Below, in pieces: positions 6,029-55,737 of a DNA stretch of 64,000 nt. Every line of letters starts with the position of its first letter. Positions within the stretch are counted from its first letter, which is position 1. Origin of the DNA: Schaalia vaccimaxillae DSM 15804 (GTDB lineage Bacteria; Actinomycetota; Actinomycetes; Actinomycetales; Actinomycetaceae); NCBI RefSeq assembly GCF_000420425.1, contig NZ_ATUX01000006.1, positions 124,001 through 188,000 on the forward strand, written 5' to 3'. Under the pieces are notes generated by a model. It searched no databases, was not told the DNA's origin, and was given only the letters and a program-made list of their open reading frames with translations. The position numbers and the translations under genes were made by a program.

Positions 6029-7012
6029 TCAGTCCTCATCCAGCATTTCTAGGGTCAGCGCGGCCTCCGTATCCGGAATACCTCGCTCATGTGCAGTCTT
6101 ATCAGCCATCGCCAACAACCTGCGGATACGCCCAGCTACAGCGTCTTTCGTCAAGGGGGGATCCGTGTGTTTACCAAGCTCTTCGAGGGATGCCTGTTTG
6201 AATTCAAGACGCAATTTGCCCGCTTCAAGCAGGTGTTCAGGAACGTCATCGCCCAGAATTTCAAACGCTCTTTCAACTCGAGCTCCCGCGGCTACAGCCG
6301 CACGAGCCGACCTGCGCAAATTGGCATCGTCGAAGTTTGCGAGTCGATTGGCAGACCCTCGAGCCTCCCGCCGTTCGCGCCGCTCTTGCCACGCCTGATA
6401 GGTGACGTTTGCTCCCATTGCTGCGATCAGGACACCAATAGCCTCCGAATCACGCACGGAAACTCGATCGGCCCCTCGTACTTCTTTCGAACGTGCACCC
6501 GCACCAAGTTTGCGCGCACATCCGACCATCGCCAGGGCCACCTCCGGCCCCGGGCACGTCACCTCCAGCGACGATGAACGCCCCGGCTCCATGAGAGAGC
6601 CTCTCGCTAGGAAAGCTCCTCGCCAAATGGCTGCGGCCTCGGCCGTTCCCGACGCCACGAGTGTGGGCGGCAGCCCCCGAACCGGCCGACGCCGAGAATC
6701 AACCAAACCGGTGAGCCTGGCCAACTCATCAGCCTGATGAACAACACGTACTACGTAGCGTTTACCGCGGCGCAGTGACCCTCCAGAAACCACTACAACC
6801 GTCGAGTCAGCGTTATAGAGGGCCTGCAGGAATGCACGCAGCCGTCGCGCAGCGACCGGAGAGTCTAACTCGGCCTCGATCAGGATTCTGCCCGACACCA
6901 AGTGCAGGCCACCTGCAAAACGCAAGATGGTGGCCACTTCGGCGGCCATCTCGGTCTGAGTGGTCACAGGGGTCCTGGCCAACTCATCCTTCATGTCGGA
7001 AGTTAAAGACAC
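6029..7012 (-). CDS. whiA: WhiA, DNA-binding regulator of cell division/sporulation type
   Basis: WhiA is a conserved Gram-positive protein made of a degenerate LAGLIDADG homing-endonuclease-like domain fused to a C-terminal helix-turn-helix. In streptomycetes it works with WhiB in sporulation septation, and in other Gram-positive bacteria it affects cell division. The protein is 327 residues. The N-terminal part contains the [11 protein letters not shown] segment, and the C-terminal helix-turn-helix lies around residues 275-310 ([19 protein letters not shown]). I chose the GTG at 7012, preceded by AAGGGA, over an upstream start that would run into yvcK. It is the third gene of the conserved rapZ-yvcK-whiA trio, 31 bases after yvcK. 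Confidence 0.93.
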
Positions 7013-7043
7013 GTGTTTTTCCCTTGAGTCTTGTCGGTCATTG

Positions 7044-8048
7044 TTAGAGCCACGCTTCAGCTTTCCCCACTTCGCCAAGAAAACCGTCGAAAGCATCACG
7101 CAGGGCGGCAGCTAAGCGCAACGGATCGTGATGGGGAGCGCCATCTCCTGTGCGTACCTGACGCAAAACGACACGCGCTCCGAGTTCTTCGGCCGCAACG
7201 ATCAAATCATCTATGTCATCGGTGGCCGTCGGGTCAGCAATGACCACGTCGAGTTTGAGATCGGGGGCGTATTCGCGCAACACCCTCACGTGGTCCGCCG
7301 TGGTCATCCGGTCAGTCTCTCCGCGTTGGCGAGATAGGTTCAGGACGAGGGCGCGGTGAGCATCGGTGGTGACCAGTGCACGGTGCATTTGCGGGACCAG
7401 TAGATGCGGAATGACCGAGGTATACCAAGAGCCTGGCCCCAATACCACCCAGTCAGCCTCGGAAATGGCTTCAATAACCGCCGAGGGCACCTTGGGTTCA
7501 CTTGGGTGGATCCGAATTTGCTGAACTGTACCCGGGGCGACAGCGACCTCCGACTGGCCCGATACCGTGTAGCGGCGACCGTTGTCATCGAGGTCGGCTT
7601 CGATATCGATTGGGTCAATAGCCATCGGTAGAACACGCCCGGAAGCACCCAGTAGTCTACCGATCCAGTCCAAGCCTTCCACCGGGTCATCCAGGAGTTG
7701 CCAGAAGCCGGAAATCAGCAGGTTGCCGAGGGCGTGCCCGTTGAGTGGGCCATCAGTTCGCAAACGCAGCTGCATGATGTCACGCCAAGTCAGACCCCAC
7801 TCGGTTTCTTCACATAGGCTGGCCAAAGCCATCCTCAGGTCGCCGGGAGGTAGAACATTCATTTCCTGACGGAGCCTGCCAGAAGATCCCCCATCATCAG
7901 CAACGGTGACGACTGCGGTGAGATGACGAGTGATATGCCGCAAGGCCCGCAGTGTGGCCGACAGGCCGTGGCCTCCACCCAGCGCAACCACGGATTGACC
8001 GTTGTCTCCGCGTTGAGCCCAGCCGGCCGCATCCAAATACGCCATCAT
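7044..8048 (-). CDS. yvcK: YvcK/CofD-like gluconeogenesis factor
   Basis: This 334-residue protein belongs to the YvcK family, which has a CofD-like fold, binds UDP-sugars and is linked to cell-wall synthesis and growth on gluconeogenic carbon. The nucleotide-binding start is visible as ALGGGHGLS near residue 23 (most relatives have GGGTGLS), followed by [13 protein letters not shown]. Further motifs are [10 protein letters not shown] and [18 protein letters not shown]. The ATG overlaps the rapZ stop as ATGA, indicating translational coupling. The CofD resemblance should not be read as F420 synthesis, because CofD proper has a different length and context. Confidence 0.92.
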
Positions 8049-50733: not shown

Positions 50734-52077
50734 TTAACGCATCTGGAGCAGATCTCTAATCGCTGCAAGGCGCTTCGTGATCATCGCCTCATTACCGTTC
50801 GTGCTGGGTTCGTAGTACTGAGTCCCCACCAAGTCATCAGGCATGTACTGCTGTGCAGCCACATGGTGAGGAGCATCATGAGCGTAGATGTAGTCCTGAC
50901 CATGCCCAAGATCTTTGGCCCCTGAATAGTGGGCATCGCGCAGGTGCAGAGGAACCGGCCCACCTTTACCTGCACGAAGATCTGCCAGAGCCGCATCGAT
51001 GCCTACGCACACCGAATTTGACTTCGGAGCGGTTGCAACGGCAATAACGGCTTCGGCTAAAACAATCCGTGCTTCGGGCATGCCGATCATTGCAACGGCC
51101 TGAGCAGCAGCAACGGCTGTTTGCAATACTTCAGGGGCTGCCATACCGACGTCTTCGGCCGCATGGATCATGACTCTTCTGGCAATGAAACGCGGATCCT
51201 CCCCCGCTTCAATCATTCTGGCAAGGTAGTGCAGGGCTGCGTCCACGTCGGAGCCGCGCATTGATTTGATGAAAGCTGACGCAACGTCGTAATGCTGATC
51301 CTCATCCCATCGCACGAGGGCCTGGTTTGCTGCTGTCTGAACGTGATCGACGCTGATCGTCGATTGACCTGTCTGCGAGGCCGCGCCGGCAGCCGCTTCC
51401 AGTAGTGTCAACGACTTGCGGGCATCCGATCCAGCGACTCGAATGAGGGCTTTGCGTGCATCGTCAAGTAGTTCGAAACGGCCCTTCAATCCGCGCTCAT
51501 CTTCGAGGGCGCGAGTCATGAGTGCACCAATAGCTTCTTCACTCAACGGATGAAGCGTTTGTAACAGCGAACGCGACAATAGAGGAGAGATTACAGAAAA
51601 AGAGGGGTTCTCTGTGGTCGCGGCAATCAGCGTCACCCACCTGTTCTCGACGGCGGGCAGAAGCGCATCTTGCTGGGACTTAGAAAATCTATGAACCTCG
51701 TCAATGAATAGCACTGTGTCTTGACGAGTTGCTCCGGTTCGACGTTTCGCAGCTGCCACTGCCTCGCGAATGTCTTTAACCCCAGCTGATACTGCCGAAA
51801 TCTCCTCGAAGTGGCGACCAGAAGCACGTGCCACCAGGTACGCCAAAGTAGTTTTTCCGGTCCCAGGAGGACCCCAAAGGAAAACCGACGACACCGACGG
51901 ACTGCCCTCTTGAGCCGGTTCGATCAGACGACGCAAAGGAGCGCCCTCGCCCAGGAGGTGGTCCTGGCCAACGACCTCATCCAAGCTTGTGGGACGCATG
52001 CGCACCGCCAACGGTGCGTCCGGTGAATAAGCGGGGATACCGGTATTTGCGAAACTCTGTGCGTCGAAGAGATCCAT
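50734..52077 (-). CDS. rarA: Replication-associated recombination protein RarA
   Basis: RarA (MgsA) is a clamp-loader-like AAA+ ATPase acting at stalled replication forks. The 447-residue protein has [18 protein letters not shown], Walker [12 protein letters not shown] near residue 71, Walker [12 protein letters not shown], the sensor segment [11 protein letters not shown], and the C-terminal MgsA domain ([31 protein letters not shown]), which forms the tetramer. It begins 31 bases after the large surface-protein gene, so readthrough from that gene is possible. Confidence 0.95.
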
Positions 52078-52098: not shown

Positions 52099-52117
52099 CG
52101 CCGACGCTTTATCGGCG
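52099..52117 (-). terminator. Small hairpin over the stop codon of the surface-protein gene
   Basis: A 6-bp stem CGCCGA/TCGGCG (52099-52104 and 52112-52117) has the stop codon in its loop. It may act as a weak terminator before rarA; without a T run the call is tentative. Confidence 0.4.
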
Positions 52118-54877
52118 AGTCAGCGAAGGCCCTGACAACACTTGGAAGATCACCAAGGCGCCCAGGAACACCAAACAACCTGCGGCTCCAAGAATGTAGC
52201 CATTCAGTGCGGTGGCGTCACCTCCCATTGACTGGGTCAACGACTGAGCGTGCGCTGCCATAATCGATGAGGCGTCGGCTGTATCGGATGAACGCGAACT
52301 GGCAAAGAGAGCATTGGATATCTCAAAGTCGGCCCAACCCAACACAGCCGTATTCTCACGGTCTCCCACAATAACGGTGTAATGCCCATTTGCAAAGGTC
52401 GAAATATCCAGTGAGGCCGATTCGTCCGCTCCAACTTGCGCCCACACGCTTTGACCACCGGGGAACACTGTCAGTGACACCCACGAGCCCGCAGGGGCGA
52501 CTTGAGAGGGAATACGAACCATCAAGTTGGCGCCATGGATACTCACGCCCGTATCTGCCCGCTGAGAGTCTTTGAGTTCACCCGTACCGGACACAACGGA
52601 CTTCGGTTGTGTCTCCGGTCGCTGACTATTGACCTGGACTCCCCCAGATCCGTTTCGCGTCTGGATGTCACCGGCGGATGGGCGAAGAGTAATAGATCCC
52701 AGAGGACCACGACGAGAGTTCTGAGTCTCAACGGTCGTGTCTCCATCACCTCTAAGCGGCGCTGACGGCGCTTGACCGGCTTGTGAGTCGTTTGAGCTCT
52801 CTCTGTCGGATTCTGAGGGCTCTTTGTTCTCGCGTCCTCCATGGATTTCGTCAACGGCGGGCTCCTCAGCAGGCGCGGGGACATCGATCTTGATCGGATC
52901 GACGACGGGAAGAGGAAGCTCGGTGGGTGCGGGAGTGGGGTCAAGGATCGGGCCGGGCATGGGAATGATTTCCTCAGGCGACGGTGTTGTTTCATTCGCC
53001 CAGGCCCAACCTACGATCTGGGAGTCACTTGATTGGAAGATAAGTCGTGCGCCGGAAATATCGTCGCGAGTCAGGCCCGGAAGTTCTGCCGTCCAGTACC
53101 CTTTTTCATCCATACTGCCGCTCGCGCGGATCTTTCCTTCGCCGCTTTGCTCACCAGCGGGTACCAGGATGACCTCGGTGGCTGAATCGAATGCGAGCGA
53201 AGGGGCAGCGATGACCTTGAGGTTTCCCTCGTGGTAATGGATGGCGATCCCCTCGAGAGCTGGCCTTGTGAAGGTTAACGGATCGATATGGGCAATGTCC
53301 GCGGCACGTTCGTGGCCTGCGTCCTGACGAGATTGAGTCAAAAGTTCCGCGCGCATCCACCCCGTAATTGTGTGCAGCTCGGGGTCAAAGAAGACCAGCT
53401 TCGAGCCGGTCAGCGCTGTCTTGTCGATTCCGACGATCCATGCTCGCCAGGCATCTTGGTCAAGCGAATCGACGTCGAGGTCTAGGAGTGTGGTCTGGCC
53501 GTCCTTATCGACGAGGGCGACATTGGTGAGGTCGGTGAGGCCTGCTTGGGCATTCAGCGTCACAACGTATCCGGTTATTCCGTCTTGTGATTGGACTTCA
53601 ACCGATACCGGTTTGACTTCTTGAGAGTGGGCGATCTCGTCGACTGAGAAAAGTGGTGTGGATTCTTCTTTGAGCGCCGGTGTCCAGCCGATGACTCCGC
53701 CTGCCTCGTCAGTGAAGACGATCTTAGCCTTTTCTAAACCGGCGTCGATTGCTTCGGGGATCCATGCGTGCCAGCTACCGTCCGGATAGATTGTCGGTTC
53801 GGTTTCGAGTTCCAGAGGAGAAGCTTGGGGATCCGCCGGTACAAGGACAACCCGAGTCTTTGCATCAAAACCGGCACTGTGGCAAGCACTGATCGTCAAG
53901 ATTCCATCAGAGTAGTTAGATGTCACGCAGTCAAGACTTGTGTTGGCCAATTCAGAAATATCGATGAGACCGATCGGGTCTTCCTTGTCCCCGGTAGGCT
54001 TCGGGTTAACGAAGCGCGCATAGAGAGCGTCCCCGGAGATCCATCCAAGAGCCGCTTCGTTCTCACCGACGAAAACAATGCGAGCTCCGACCAAAGAGTC
54101 ACTATCTAGATCAGCGATACGCACTCGCCAGGTATGGGCCGTCGTTGAACTATCCGCGATCGTCAGCTTGGTCACGGATGAGTCCTGACGAACCAAATAG
54201 GCTTGTGTATTTTCACCGAAACCTTCGCTTCCGATGACTTCAACATCGAGGAAGTTGTCGACGAACTCAGCGCTTACCTCGTCGGAAAGATCCTCGGAAG
54301 TCTCAATTTCGACAGGCGTGATTGTCCGGACGGTGCCCTGGGCACTGTTAGCCATACGAATGAAGCCAGTTCCAGCGTCCTGGATCCTGAGGCCCGCAGC
54401 ATCGTTGTAGACAACATAGAAGTCGACTTGGTGCACTCCTCCAACTTGCCAGGCGACTCCTTCGCCGTTGTTGACCCCATTTGGGATCTGTACATCCATT
54501 GGGGCTGCGGCCACCATGTCAGATCTTTGACTCGTTTGATTAGGCCCCATGGCTTGAGCTTGCCAACATTGGGCAGCTTCAACCGTGATCTCACCAAATT
54601 CACATTCCCCTACAGGACTCCCCCCATCGAGGACAGCGAAAGCGTAGATCGCAGTCGGAGAGCTTGAGTACACCGTCCATCGACTGCTGGTCTGCCCCGG
54701 CACGACTTCTTTAATGGTGTCATCGGCAGTGGGTTCGCGCAGTGTTGCAGCCGCCGCTGGCCATGCAACGAGTAGCGCAATGACGAAAATCGCCAGAACA
54801 GCAGTGAGAATCTTTCGTCCAACGGCCATCGCCGATGTCATGGTCTCGCCAAAACTCATAGGCGTAGTGTTGGACAT
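52109..54877 (-). CDS. Large membrane-anchored extracellular protein with four related modules, unknown function
   Basis: I do not recognise this 922-residue protein. It has an N-terminal signal segment (residues about 22-44, ending WPAAAA), a long extracellular part, a Pro-rich linker (about 630-680), a low-complexity polar stretch (about 690-770), a C-terminal beta-type domain and a final membrane helix (about 894-914) with a short SLTRR tail. Four modules of roughly 110-115 residues end in related segments: GARIVFVGENEAALGW, KAKIVFTDEAGGVIGW, GSKLVFFDPELHTITGW and GARLIFQSSDSQIVGW, at about residues 279, 397, 507 and 624. A fifth partial copy, ENTAVLGW, is near 847. No LPXTG motif is present. 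AAGGAG precedes the ATG. Confidence 0.85.
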   Translation of the reverse strand: MSNTTPMSFGETMTSAMAVGRKILTAVLAIFVIALLVAWPAAAATLREPTADDTIKEVVPGQTSSRWTVYSSSPTAIYAFAVLDGGSPVGECEFGEITVEAAQCWQAQAMGPNQTSQRSDMVAAAPMDVQIPNGVNNGEGVAWQVGGVHQVDFYVVYNDAAGLRIQDAGTGFIRMANSAQGTVRTITPVEIETSEDLSDEVSAEFVDNFLDVEVIGSEGFGENTQAYLVRQDSSVTKLTIADSSTTAHTWRVRIADLDSDSLVGARIVFVGENEAALGWISGDALYARFVNPKPTGDKEDPIGLIDISELANTSLDCVTSNYSDGILTISACHSAGFDAKTRVVLVPADPQASPLELETEPTIYPDGSWHAWIPEAIDAGLEKAKIVFTDEAGGVIGWTPALKEESTPLFSVDEIAHSQEVKPVSVEVQSQDGITGYVVTLNAQAGLTDLTNVALVDKDGQTTLLDLDVDSLDQDAWRAWIVGIDKTALTGSKLVFFDPELHTITGWMRAELLTQSRQDAGHERAADIAHIDPLTFTRPALEGIAIHYHEGNLKVIAAPSLAFDSATEVILVPAGEQSGEGKIRASGSMDEKGYWTAELPGLTRDDISGARLIFQSSDSQIVGWAWANETTPSPEEIIPMPGPILDPTPAPTELPLPVVDPIKIDVPAPAEEPAVDEIHGGRENKEPSESDRESSNDSQAGQAPSAPLRGDGDTTVETQNSRRGPLGSITLRPSAGDIQTRNGSGGVQVNSQRPETQPKSVVSGTGELKDSQRADTGVSIHGANLMVRIPSQVAPAGSWVSLTVFPGGQSVWAQVGADESASLDISTFANGHYTVIVGDRENTAVLGWADFEISNALFASSRSSDTADASSIMAAHAQSLTQSMGGDATALNGYILGAAGCLVFLGALVIFQVLSGPSLTRR

Positions 54878-55119: not shown

Positions 55120-55737
55120 TTATTCGAAGATCGCGGTGTCACCGGCACCGTAGCGGGCAATCTCGGGCACGCCCGAAGTAAAGTCAACAACGGTTGTAGC
55201 CCCCGCATCACCAACGGGACCAACCAGCACGAGGTCGACTTGGCGACCAATCTTGTCATCGACTTCAAAACCATCGATTAACGGCTCGTCTTCACCCGGC
55301 ATGATGAGAGTCGAACACAGCAGAGGCTCACCGAGCTCAGCGACCACAGCCTGCGTGATCGCATGATCGGGAATACGCACCCCAACCGTGTGCTTCTTCT
55401 TGTTGAGTGTCATCCGAGGGATCTCTTTAGTGCCGGGCAGGATGAAAGTGTAAGGCCCGGGGGTTAAGGCTTTGATTGCACGAAATTCTGAATTCCCAAC
55501 GATGACGAGGTCGCCCAATTGGGCGAATGAATGACACAGTAAAGAGAAGTTGTGTTTGTCATCGAGTTTACGCACCTCACGAATGACATCCATTCCAGCC
55601 TTGTTTCCAAGTTTACAGGCAATGGCATATCCGGAGTCGGTGGGCAAGGCGATGGTGCCGCCACCGTGCAGAATATCGACTGTCTTAGTCACAAAACGGG
55701 CTTGGGGGTTCACTGGGTGCATCTCTACGTACGACAT
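55120..55737 (-). CDS. yciO: YciO-type member of the Sua5/YciO/YrdC family
   Basis: The 205-residue protein matches YciO more closely than TsaC: it begins with an HPxNPQxR segment, has GGGTIALPTDSGYAIACK, the HNFSLLCH segment, LTPGPYTFILPGTKE and GVRIPDH, and ends with TTVVDFTSGVPEIARYGAGD. The family binds ATP and threonine-derived carbamoyl-AMP; TsaC/Sua5 makes the t6A intermediate, while the role of YciO is less certain. It is the only such protein in this window, so whether it supplies t6A cannot be judged here. It follows aspS after a strong terminator. Confidence 0.88.
   Translation of the reverse strand: MSYVEMHPVNPQARFVTKTVDILHGGGTIALPTDSGYAIACKLGNKAGMDVIREVRKLDDKHNFSLLCHSFAQLGDLVIVGNSEFRAIKALTPGPYTFILPGTKEIPRMTLNKKKHTVGVRIPDHAITQAVVAELGEPLLCSTLIMPGEDEPLIDGFEVDDKIGRQVDLVLVGPVGDAGATTVVDFTSGVPEIARYGAGDTAIFE

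Follow-up and report, generated by a model that had tools for sequence, protein, structure and literature searches.

The window analysed here, a stretch of 64,000 nucleotides from Schaalia vaccimaxillae DSM 15804, carries on its minus strand an open reading frame of 922 codons, opposite a plus strand that is full of stops. This frame, described in the earlier note, is a real gene, which has one DNA match in its own genome and lies between two genes that we take to be tsaC/sua5 and rarA (Table 1; these names, as well as aspS, alaS and rpsD, are presumed ones, given by eye). Hydropathy and composition agree with the note's outline of a signal segment, a proline-rich stalk and a C-terminal membrane anchor without a sortase motif: the most hydrophobic 19-residue windows of the protein fall within residues 16-47 and 891-920, proline makes up 13.6% of residues 641-772 as compared with 4.9% of residues 45-640, and a search for an LPXTG-like sorting motif found none. 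We infer that the protein is located at the cell surface. Between its ends lie an N-terminal domain (the N-domain, also referred to as the head) and five modules, here M2 to M6, with GW pairs at positions 278, 397, 506, 623 and 847. The window genome also encodes a second RarA-like protein (45% identical; G000:C9:36782-38056), and such a second copy passes an E value of 1e-100 in six of the 35 genomes of the genus.

Table 1. Features of the gene, of its 922-residue product and of the flanking genes, in window coordinates.
Feature	Coordinates	Strand	Basis
922-aa surface protein gene (family A, orphan, expanded)	52109..54877	-	ORF reading
Signal segment, residues 1-44	54746..54877	-	hydrophobic stretch; putative cleavage site
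N-domain (head), residues 45-185, signature D, G, P, W, G, H	54323..54745	-	alignment of 39 domains; model of moderate confidence
GW module M2, residues 190-290	54008..54310	-	leave-one-out profile; model block pLDDT 88-95 over residues 205-284
GW module M3, residues 312-408	53654..53944	-	leave-one-out profile
GW module M4, residues 420-522	53312..53620	-	leave-one-out profile
GW module M5, residues 540-640	52958..53260	-	leave-one-out profile
Pro-rich linker, residues 641-772	52562..52957	-	composition
GW module M6, residues 773-856, conserved family foot	52310..52561	-	profile of relatives, model, profile link to M2-M5
Membrane helix, residues 891-914, then short tail ending RR	52136..52207	-	model helix (low confidence there) and hydropathy
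rarA, downstream neighbour	50734..52077	-	starts 31 bp after the A gene; matched in 35/35 genus genomes
tsaC/sua5, upstream neighbour	55120..55737	-	matched in 35/35 genus genomes

Database searches with the whole protein returned no Pfam family at E values up to 10, one NCBIfam match at E 0.2 that lies far under its cut-off, one PHROGs match at 0.15, no match in plasmid and phage collections and no relative in a search of genome contigs. Searches of PDB sequences with three profiles gave E values of 0.45 or worse, or nothing, and no ligand-binding family was recognised in the protein. Thus, Pfam, NCBIfam, PHROGs and PDB sequences yielded no confident match of the whole protein to a characterised family. 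No promoter turned up in a scan for which chance alone would predict 1.5.

The modules M2 to M5, described in the earlier note as four related repeats, are indeed homologous to each other: in leave-one-out profile searches, in which each was scored against the other modules with M6 included, they reached 37.2, 51.6, 33.7 and 31.8 bits, respectively, and none of 1000 shuffles scored as high for any of them. The repeats have diverged, and M3 is 25-31% identical to the other modules. Compared as single sequences, M6 and M2-M5 show a weak resemblance (4.9 bits; 42 of 5000 shuffles as high), and M2-M5 taken singly score 2.9-8.5 bits on a profile of 26 family GW modules (3 to 37 of 1000 shuffles as high). 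When this 26-sequence profile is aligned with that of M2-M5, HHalign gives a score of 32.9, with a probability of 81% and an E value of 1.2e-5 for a single comparison; among the controls, 200 column shuffles reached 19.6 at best and the reversed alignment reached 11.2. The head (residues 45-185) scored -1.1 bits against the GW modules, with 771 of 1000 shuffles as high, and gave no profile match to them either. From the repeat scores and the HHalign link to M6 it follows that the protein consists of five GW modules and a head in which no relation to the modules was detected.

In structure predictions, M2, for which the alignment also included M3-M5, forms an eight-stranded sandwich whose last strand holds the GW pair, and M6 forms a seven-stranded sandwich with block pLDDT values of 82-92 over residues 773-852; the head is modelled more poorly, with blocks of about 54-83. 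M6, which had been noted earlier as a partial module, is therefore modelled as a full domain. M2 matches the pullulanase 3wdh (Z 7.4, 3.2 Å over 81 residues), and M6 matches 8qb1 (Z 7.6, 2.6 Å over 72 residues), as well as 3sd2 by Foldseek (E 2.4e-3). These Z values fall in the range that the structural aligner calls common, and the matches are generic Ig-like ones among the families it lists, so both modules are predicted to be Ig-like at the level of fold only. Generic bacterial Ig-like domains such as DUF3244 and the mirolase C-terminal domain share the seven-stranded sandwich with M6; in contrast, the profiles of the window protein have no significant sequence match among PDB chains. For a two-domain model, the Foldseek list is made up mostly of antibodies that cover the two domains together at low TM-score, which was not taken as a sign of kinship.

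Both rarA and tsaC were matched in all 35 genomes of the genus, and the slot between them, which was fetched from 34 (G014 was left out, as rarA lies at a contig end), ranges from 66 bp to 10.7 kb. An N-domain profile matches 17 of the 35 genomes, including that of the window, and every match lies between rarA and tsaC, as judged by comparing positions by eye; no match was obtained in the other 18. A GW foot is present in 13 of these 17 genomes, again including the window's, and the window foot matches the 12 slot orthologues at E values of 8.2e-36 to 2.2e-21; M6 is also found by a profile made from the relatives alone (48 bits). These 12 proteins are 442-500 aa long as called and do not contain M2-M5, for which no match below E 0.01 was found in the 212 other genomes of the taxonomic family (best 0.0117). 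A gene for a paralogue, B, which has its own N-domain, lies ahead of A in every GW-bearing slot but that of the window (12 of 13). In eight of the 34 slots (G010, G016, G017, G019, G022, G028, G032 and G034) the place of A is taken by a different protein of 472-492 aa, which ends in GSHGC.NMPV and was read by eye as putatively L,D-transpeptidase-like. Two records with a Schaalia-type locus (L058 and L059) are titled Sanguibacter keddieii and Xylanimonas cellulosilytica and are probably misnamed. Since the locus is syntenic and the GC content of the slot equals that of rarA (0.56 for both), recent cargo was rejected as an explanation for the gene; the note had leaned the same way, and the plasmid and phage collections gave no match. 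Its suggestion of a conserved envelope component stands for the locus, which 17 of 35 genomes have in common, but not for the whole protein: the slot is variable, 18 genomes have no N-domain match and M2-M5 are unmatched below E 0.01 in the other 212 genomes of the taxonomic family.

The window protein belongs to an unnamed actinobacterial family, here family A, whose members combine the N-domain head with at least one Ig-like GW module, a proline-rich linker and a foot made of a GW module and a membrane helix. It has the C-terminal GW module followed by a membrane helix, the N-domain with the conserved D, G, P, W, G and H seen in an alignment of 39 domains (D84 and H149 are among its conserved residues), and a place in the tsaC-rarA slot of the genus. 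Pairwise, its N-domain matches those of relatives weakly (E 4.7e-4 to 1e-6), and its score on the A3 profile is circular, because that profile contains the window's own row. A full-length alignment of the relatives misplaced the head and was set aside, and the structure alignment that was used has a few stray misplaced end residues. The note's statement that no family has this layout therefore holds for the databases scanned, but the relatives do form a family, unnamed and often linked to siderophore operons. A literature search, judged by titles and the beginnings of abstracts, turned up no paper on it, which is not proof of absence.

The foot profile matches 60 of the 213 genomes of the taxonomic family, namely 15 of the window's genus, 41 of a genus that is probably Actinomyces (g3) and four others, a few of these matches being weak or to another type of protein; of 20 regions considered, those of G092, G131 and G012 were left out because each had a weak match within a different kind of protein. 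The N-domain is rarer: it was found in 19 of the 213 genomes, in two of 296 in a class-wide draw (G000, the window genome, and G440) and in 12 of 245 genomes drawn evenly from the larger family of G440 (f34). Neighbouring genes in g3 were examined in 15 of the 41 foot-matched genomes, over stretches of 12-14 kb (19 kb more in G047), and in all 15 A adjoins aspS and the gene for a second membrane-anchored Ig-like protein, HW, named for its HWLRF motif. HW also follows A in G125, G177, G440 and 11 further N-domain genomes of f34, and it occurs in none of the 34 slots of the window's genus, the window included. Several single loci differ in detail: in G440 (L125) A is split over two frames, while its close relative G573 has one frame; a 96-aa ORF that looks WXG100-like by eye (L107:3547-3837) lies just upstream of A in G177; an N-domain protein of G125 also has a beta-propeller-like region; and L144 (G554) and L149 (G696) are second loci without a GW module, outside the 12 f34 genomes.

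In relatives, the A gene recurs within operons for siderophore-type transporters. Apart from the window's, 30 genomes with the N-domain were found, and in 23 of them A lies beside a gene for one substrate-binding lipoprotein (SBP) of a siderophore-type ABC importer, mostly together with FecCDE genes; A is found either between the SBP and permease genes or at the end of the operon. In all 12 f34 genomes with the N-domain the SBP (49-58% identical), A and HW genes follow each other in this order, with FecC, FecD and FecE directly after in nine (the exceptions are G523, G642 and G697), and in G125 the order is an esterase-like gene, SBP, A, HW, FecC, FecD and FecE. Within the window's genus, 13 slots have a GW foot, and SBP and FecCD genes are present in 10 of these; in G006 (L057), for example, the slot reads tsaC, an enterochelin-esterase-like gene, SBP, FecC, FecD, FecE, B, A and rarA. 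The transporter genes of G024 match PF01497, PF01032 (twice) and PF00005, and the esterase-like gene matches PF11806 and PF00756. The nearest NCBIfam models, all under their cut-offs, are a ferric-dicitrate model for the SBP and enterobactin models for one permease and the ATPase. At an identity of at least 65%, the SBP is encoded in 11 of the 213 genomes of the taxonomic family, all 11 of which have the N-domain; eight other N-domain genomes, that of the window among them, do not have it. No cognate SBP is present in seven N-domain genomes besides the window's (G001, where the slot reads 1890 N, G004, G007, G009, G011, G030 and G177). Among the 15 g3 loci, siderophore-type genes lie near A and HW in G047 only, and eight of the others show only ABC-ATPase matches of 28-34% identity or one short piece. 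A DtxR-type iron box with at most four mismatches to the consensus is found near the SBP start in 19 of 23 operons, compared with 124 of 4538 random windows from the same loci; the best sites in the remaining four (G523, G701, G697 and G125) have 5-9 mismatches. Three further N-domain genes (L138:5658-8033, L146:6634-10101 and L147:6508-9986; minus strand) are divergent from an SBP-A-HW operon and have iron-box-like sites with three mismatches just upstream.

The window copy is an orphan of the family. No SBP or FecCDE gene stands beside it in the slot, no cognate SBP was found in the window genome at E 1e-20, and neither HW nor paralogue B adjoins it. The best DtxR-type site upstream of the gene has seven mismatches, and the best in the whole slot has six. 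Elsewhere in the genome, contig 5 does carry a FecC-FecD pair, accompanied by an ATPase (52%) and a distantly related SBP (25%). In the window genome, the protein is thus not part of a functioning siderophore operon.

The reading we favour for family A is that of a surface component of a siderophore importer, one that in several lineages has also turned independent. In the proposed model, the foot of GW module and helix would anchor A in the membrane and the proline-rich linker could span the wall, so that the head may capture or hold an iron ligand outside the wall and hand it to the SBP lipoprotein of the ABC importer. The operon is usually under an iron box and includes a gene for a second membrane-anchored Ig-like protein (HW or, in the window's genus, B). 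The four extra GW modules of the window protein would lengthen its stalk and thereby hold the head further from the cell. Our preferred reading of the window protein, at a little less than an even chance, is that of a protein which captures a ligand at the cell surface and descends from such a siderophore system; it may also have kept an iron-related role. Weighing against this reading are the absence of transporter, partner and iron box at the window locus, the seven further N-domain genomes that do not have the SBP, the four operons without a box, the g3 loci, of which one in 15 examined has siderophore-type genes nearby, and fold matches that are generic, with no ligand-binding family recognised.

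Several known surface systems offer partial parallels. In the Isd system of staphylococci, wall-displayed surface proteins with NEAT domains and sortase anchoring pass their ligand to a lipoprotein SBP and a FecCD-type permease. Family A would likewise use a wall-displayed protein to supply an SBP; a Pfam scan and a motif search of the window protein found neither a NEAT domain nor a sortase motif. In Corynebacterium diphtheriae, the hemophores HtaA and ChtA are surface proteins that serve iron acquisition and bind haem by CR domains (PMC12494546). They are paired with HmuTUV, and thus resemble what is proposed for family A in being actinobacterial surface proteins for iron acquisition beside a FecCD-type ABC importer. 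Pfam scans, applied to the window protein and to six surface proteins encoded in the slots of relatives, detected no CR (HtaA) domain, and, unlike in HtaA/ChtA systems, the transporter genes of the A-family operons look like those for siderophores and are accompanied by an enterochelin-esterase-like gene. The troA-dip0445 cluster of the same species, for which PMC6711530 mentions Zur and DtxR sites, similarly combines ABC importer genes with several surface-anchored proteins of unknown function, but is described there as a zinc system regulated by Zur. None of the scanned A or B proteins matched the anchored-repeat models of NCBIfam (the window protein at E values up to 10), and the FecE-type ATPase stays under the cut-off of the anchored-repeat ATPase model (123 of 268.8 bits).

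The alternative that fares best, which we nevertheless consider unlikely, is a simple adhesin or spacer role for the window protein, unconnected with iron today, in which its Ig-like stalk presents the N-domain to a host glycan, a host protein or a partner bacterium. This would suit the combination of a multi-Ig stalk, a proline-rich linker and a membrane anchor, the confinement of the extra modules to the window species among the 213 genomes and the missing iron box and cognate transporter of the window copy; Bap and a large adhesion protein are also among the fold matches, generic as these are. That the family is repeatedly linked, in three lineages, to a single SBP subfamily would, however, be unexpected for a general adhesin.

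Further evidence on the head comes from a sister clade, the named members of which include Schaalia odontolytica, where deeply diverged head types sit on a near-identical foot. Over the 45 pairs formed by ten genomes, the head averages an identity of 0.52, as compared with 0.92 for RarA, 0.97 for TsaC and 0.90 for the foot. When G024 and G027 are compared in 150-bp DNA windows over the slot and its flanks, identity is 78-99% except for two head windows at 58-62% (in L041 and L044 the divergence is confined to the head, about 6885-7185 from the end of tsaC), and dS is 1.78 for the head against 0.115-0.195 for the foot and linker (foot 0.115). Within head types, dN/dS is 0.10-0.32, with no sign of positive selection. 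On the strength of these dS, dN/dS and 150-bp identity values, the head types are old and under purifying selection and have probably been exchanged by recombination. The head type of G024 is common to G005 and G006 (90-91%), and the transporter genes of G024 are 94-99% identical to those of G027 and 74-94% to those of G005. The N-terminal part of paralogue B is 43-94% identical and hence more variable than the foot. SBPs that go with the other head type still share 96-98% identity with the SBP of G006, so the importer seems to have kept its substrate.

Such variation could also reflect escape, with the head serving as the target of, or a decoy for, an agent outside the cell such as a phage, an episymbiotic Saccharibacterium or an immune factor. 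The contrast between head and foot in identity, dS and DNA windows, together with the seemingly constant substrate, would be in keeping with this, and S. odontolytica is named in the literature as a Saccharibacteria host. Against it stand the low dN/dS values within head types, the fact that swapped alleles would equally fit ligand specificity, and searches in which the phage collections gave no link to phages and the titles and abstract openings of the literature none to a symbiont; we therefore regard this explanation as improbable. A role in cell-envelope maintenance, whereby envelope genes simply come to lie in the slot ahead of rarA and A contributes to the structure of the wall, is suggested by the putative L,D-transpeptidase-like protein found in the same place in eight of 34 slots and is very improbable, as none of the slots listed holds both proteins, the two look unrelated by eye and the association with siderophore operons would be left unexplained.

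Returning to the siderophore-derived reading, a bolder form of it, on balance doubtful and yet a serious possibility, would see in A and HW a pair of membrane-anchored receptors that pick up ferric siderophore beyond the wall for the lipoprotein, and with them the surface component of a novel type of siderophore importer in Gram-positive bacteria. The head would be polymorphic and recombining while the foot and transporter stay fixed, and the window protein would be an operon escapee that has grown into a longer, independent surface fibre. Uptake of siderophores by Gram-positive bacteria is usually thought to need the lipoprotein alone. If the family link is right, there would be a siderophore system of Gram-positive bacteria in which one receptor component crosses the wall, and a set of unannotated actinobacterial surface proteins would gain a testable role in iron uptake. 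The polymorphism between sister species singles out the head as the region exposed to selection, and the window protein would show how a component of an operon can lose that operon and be remodelled by module expansion.
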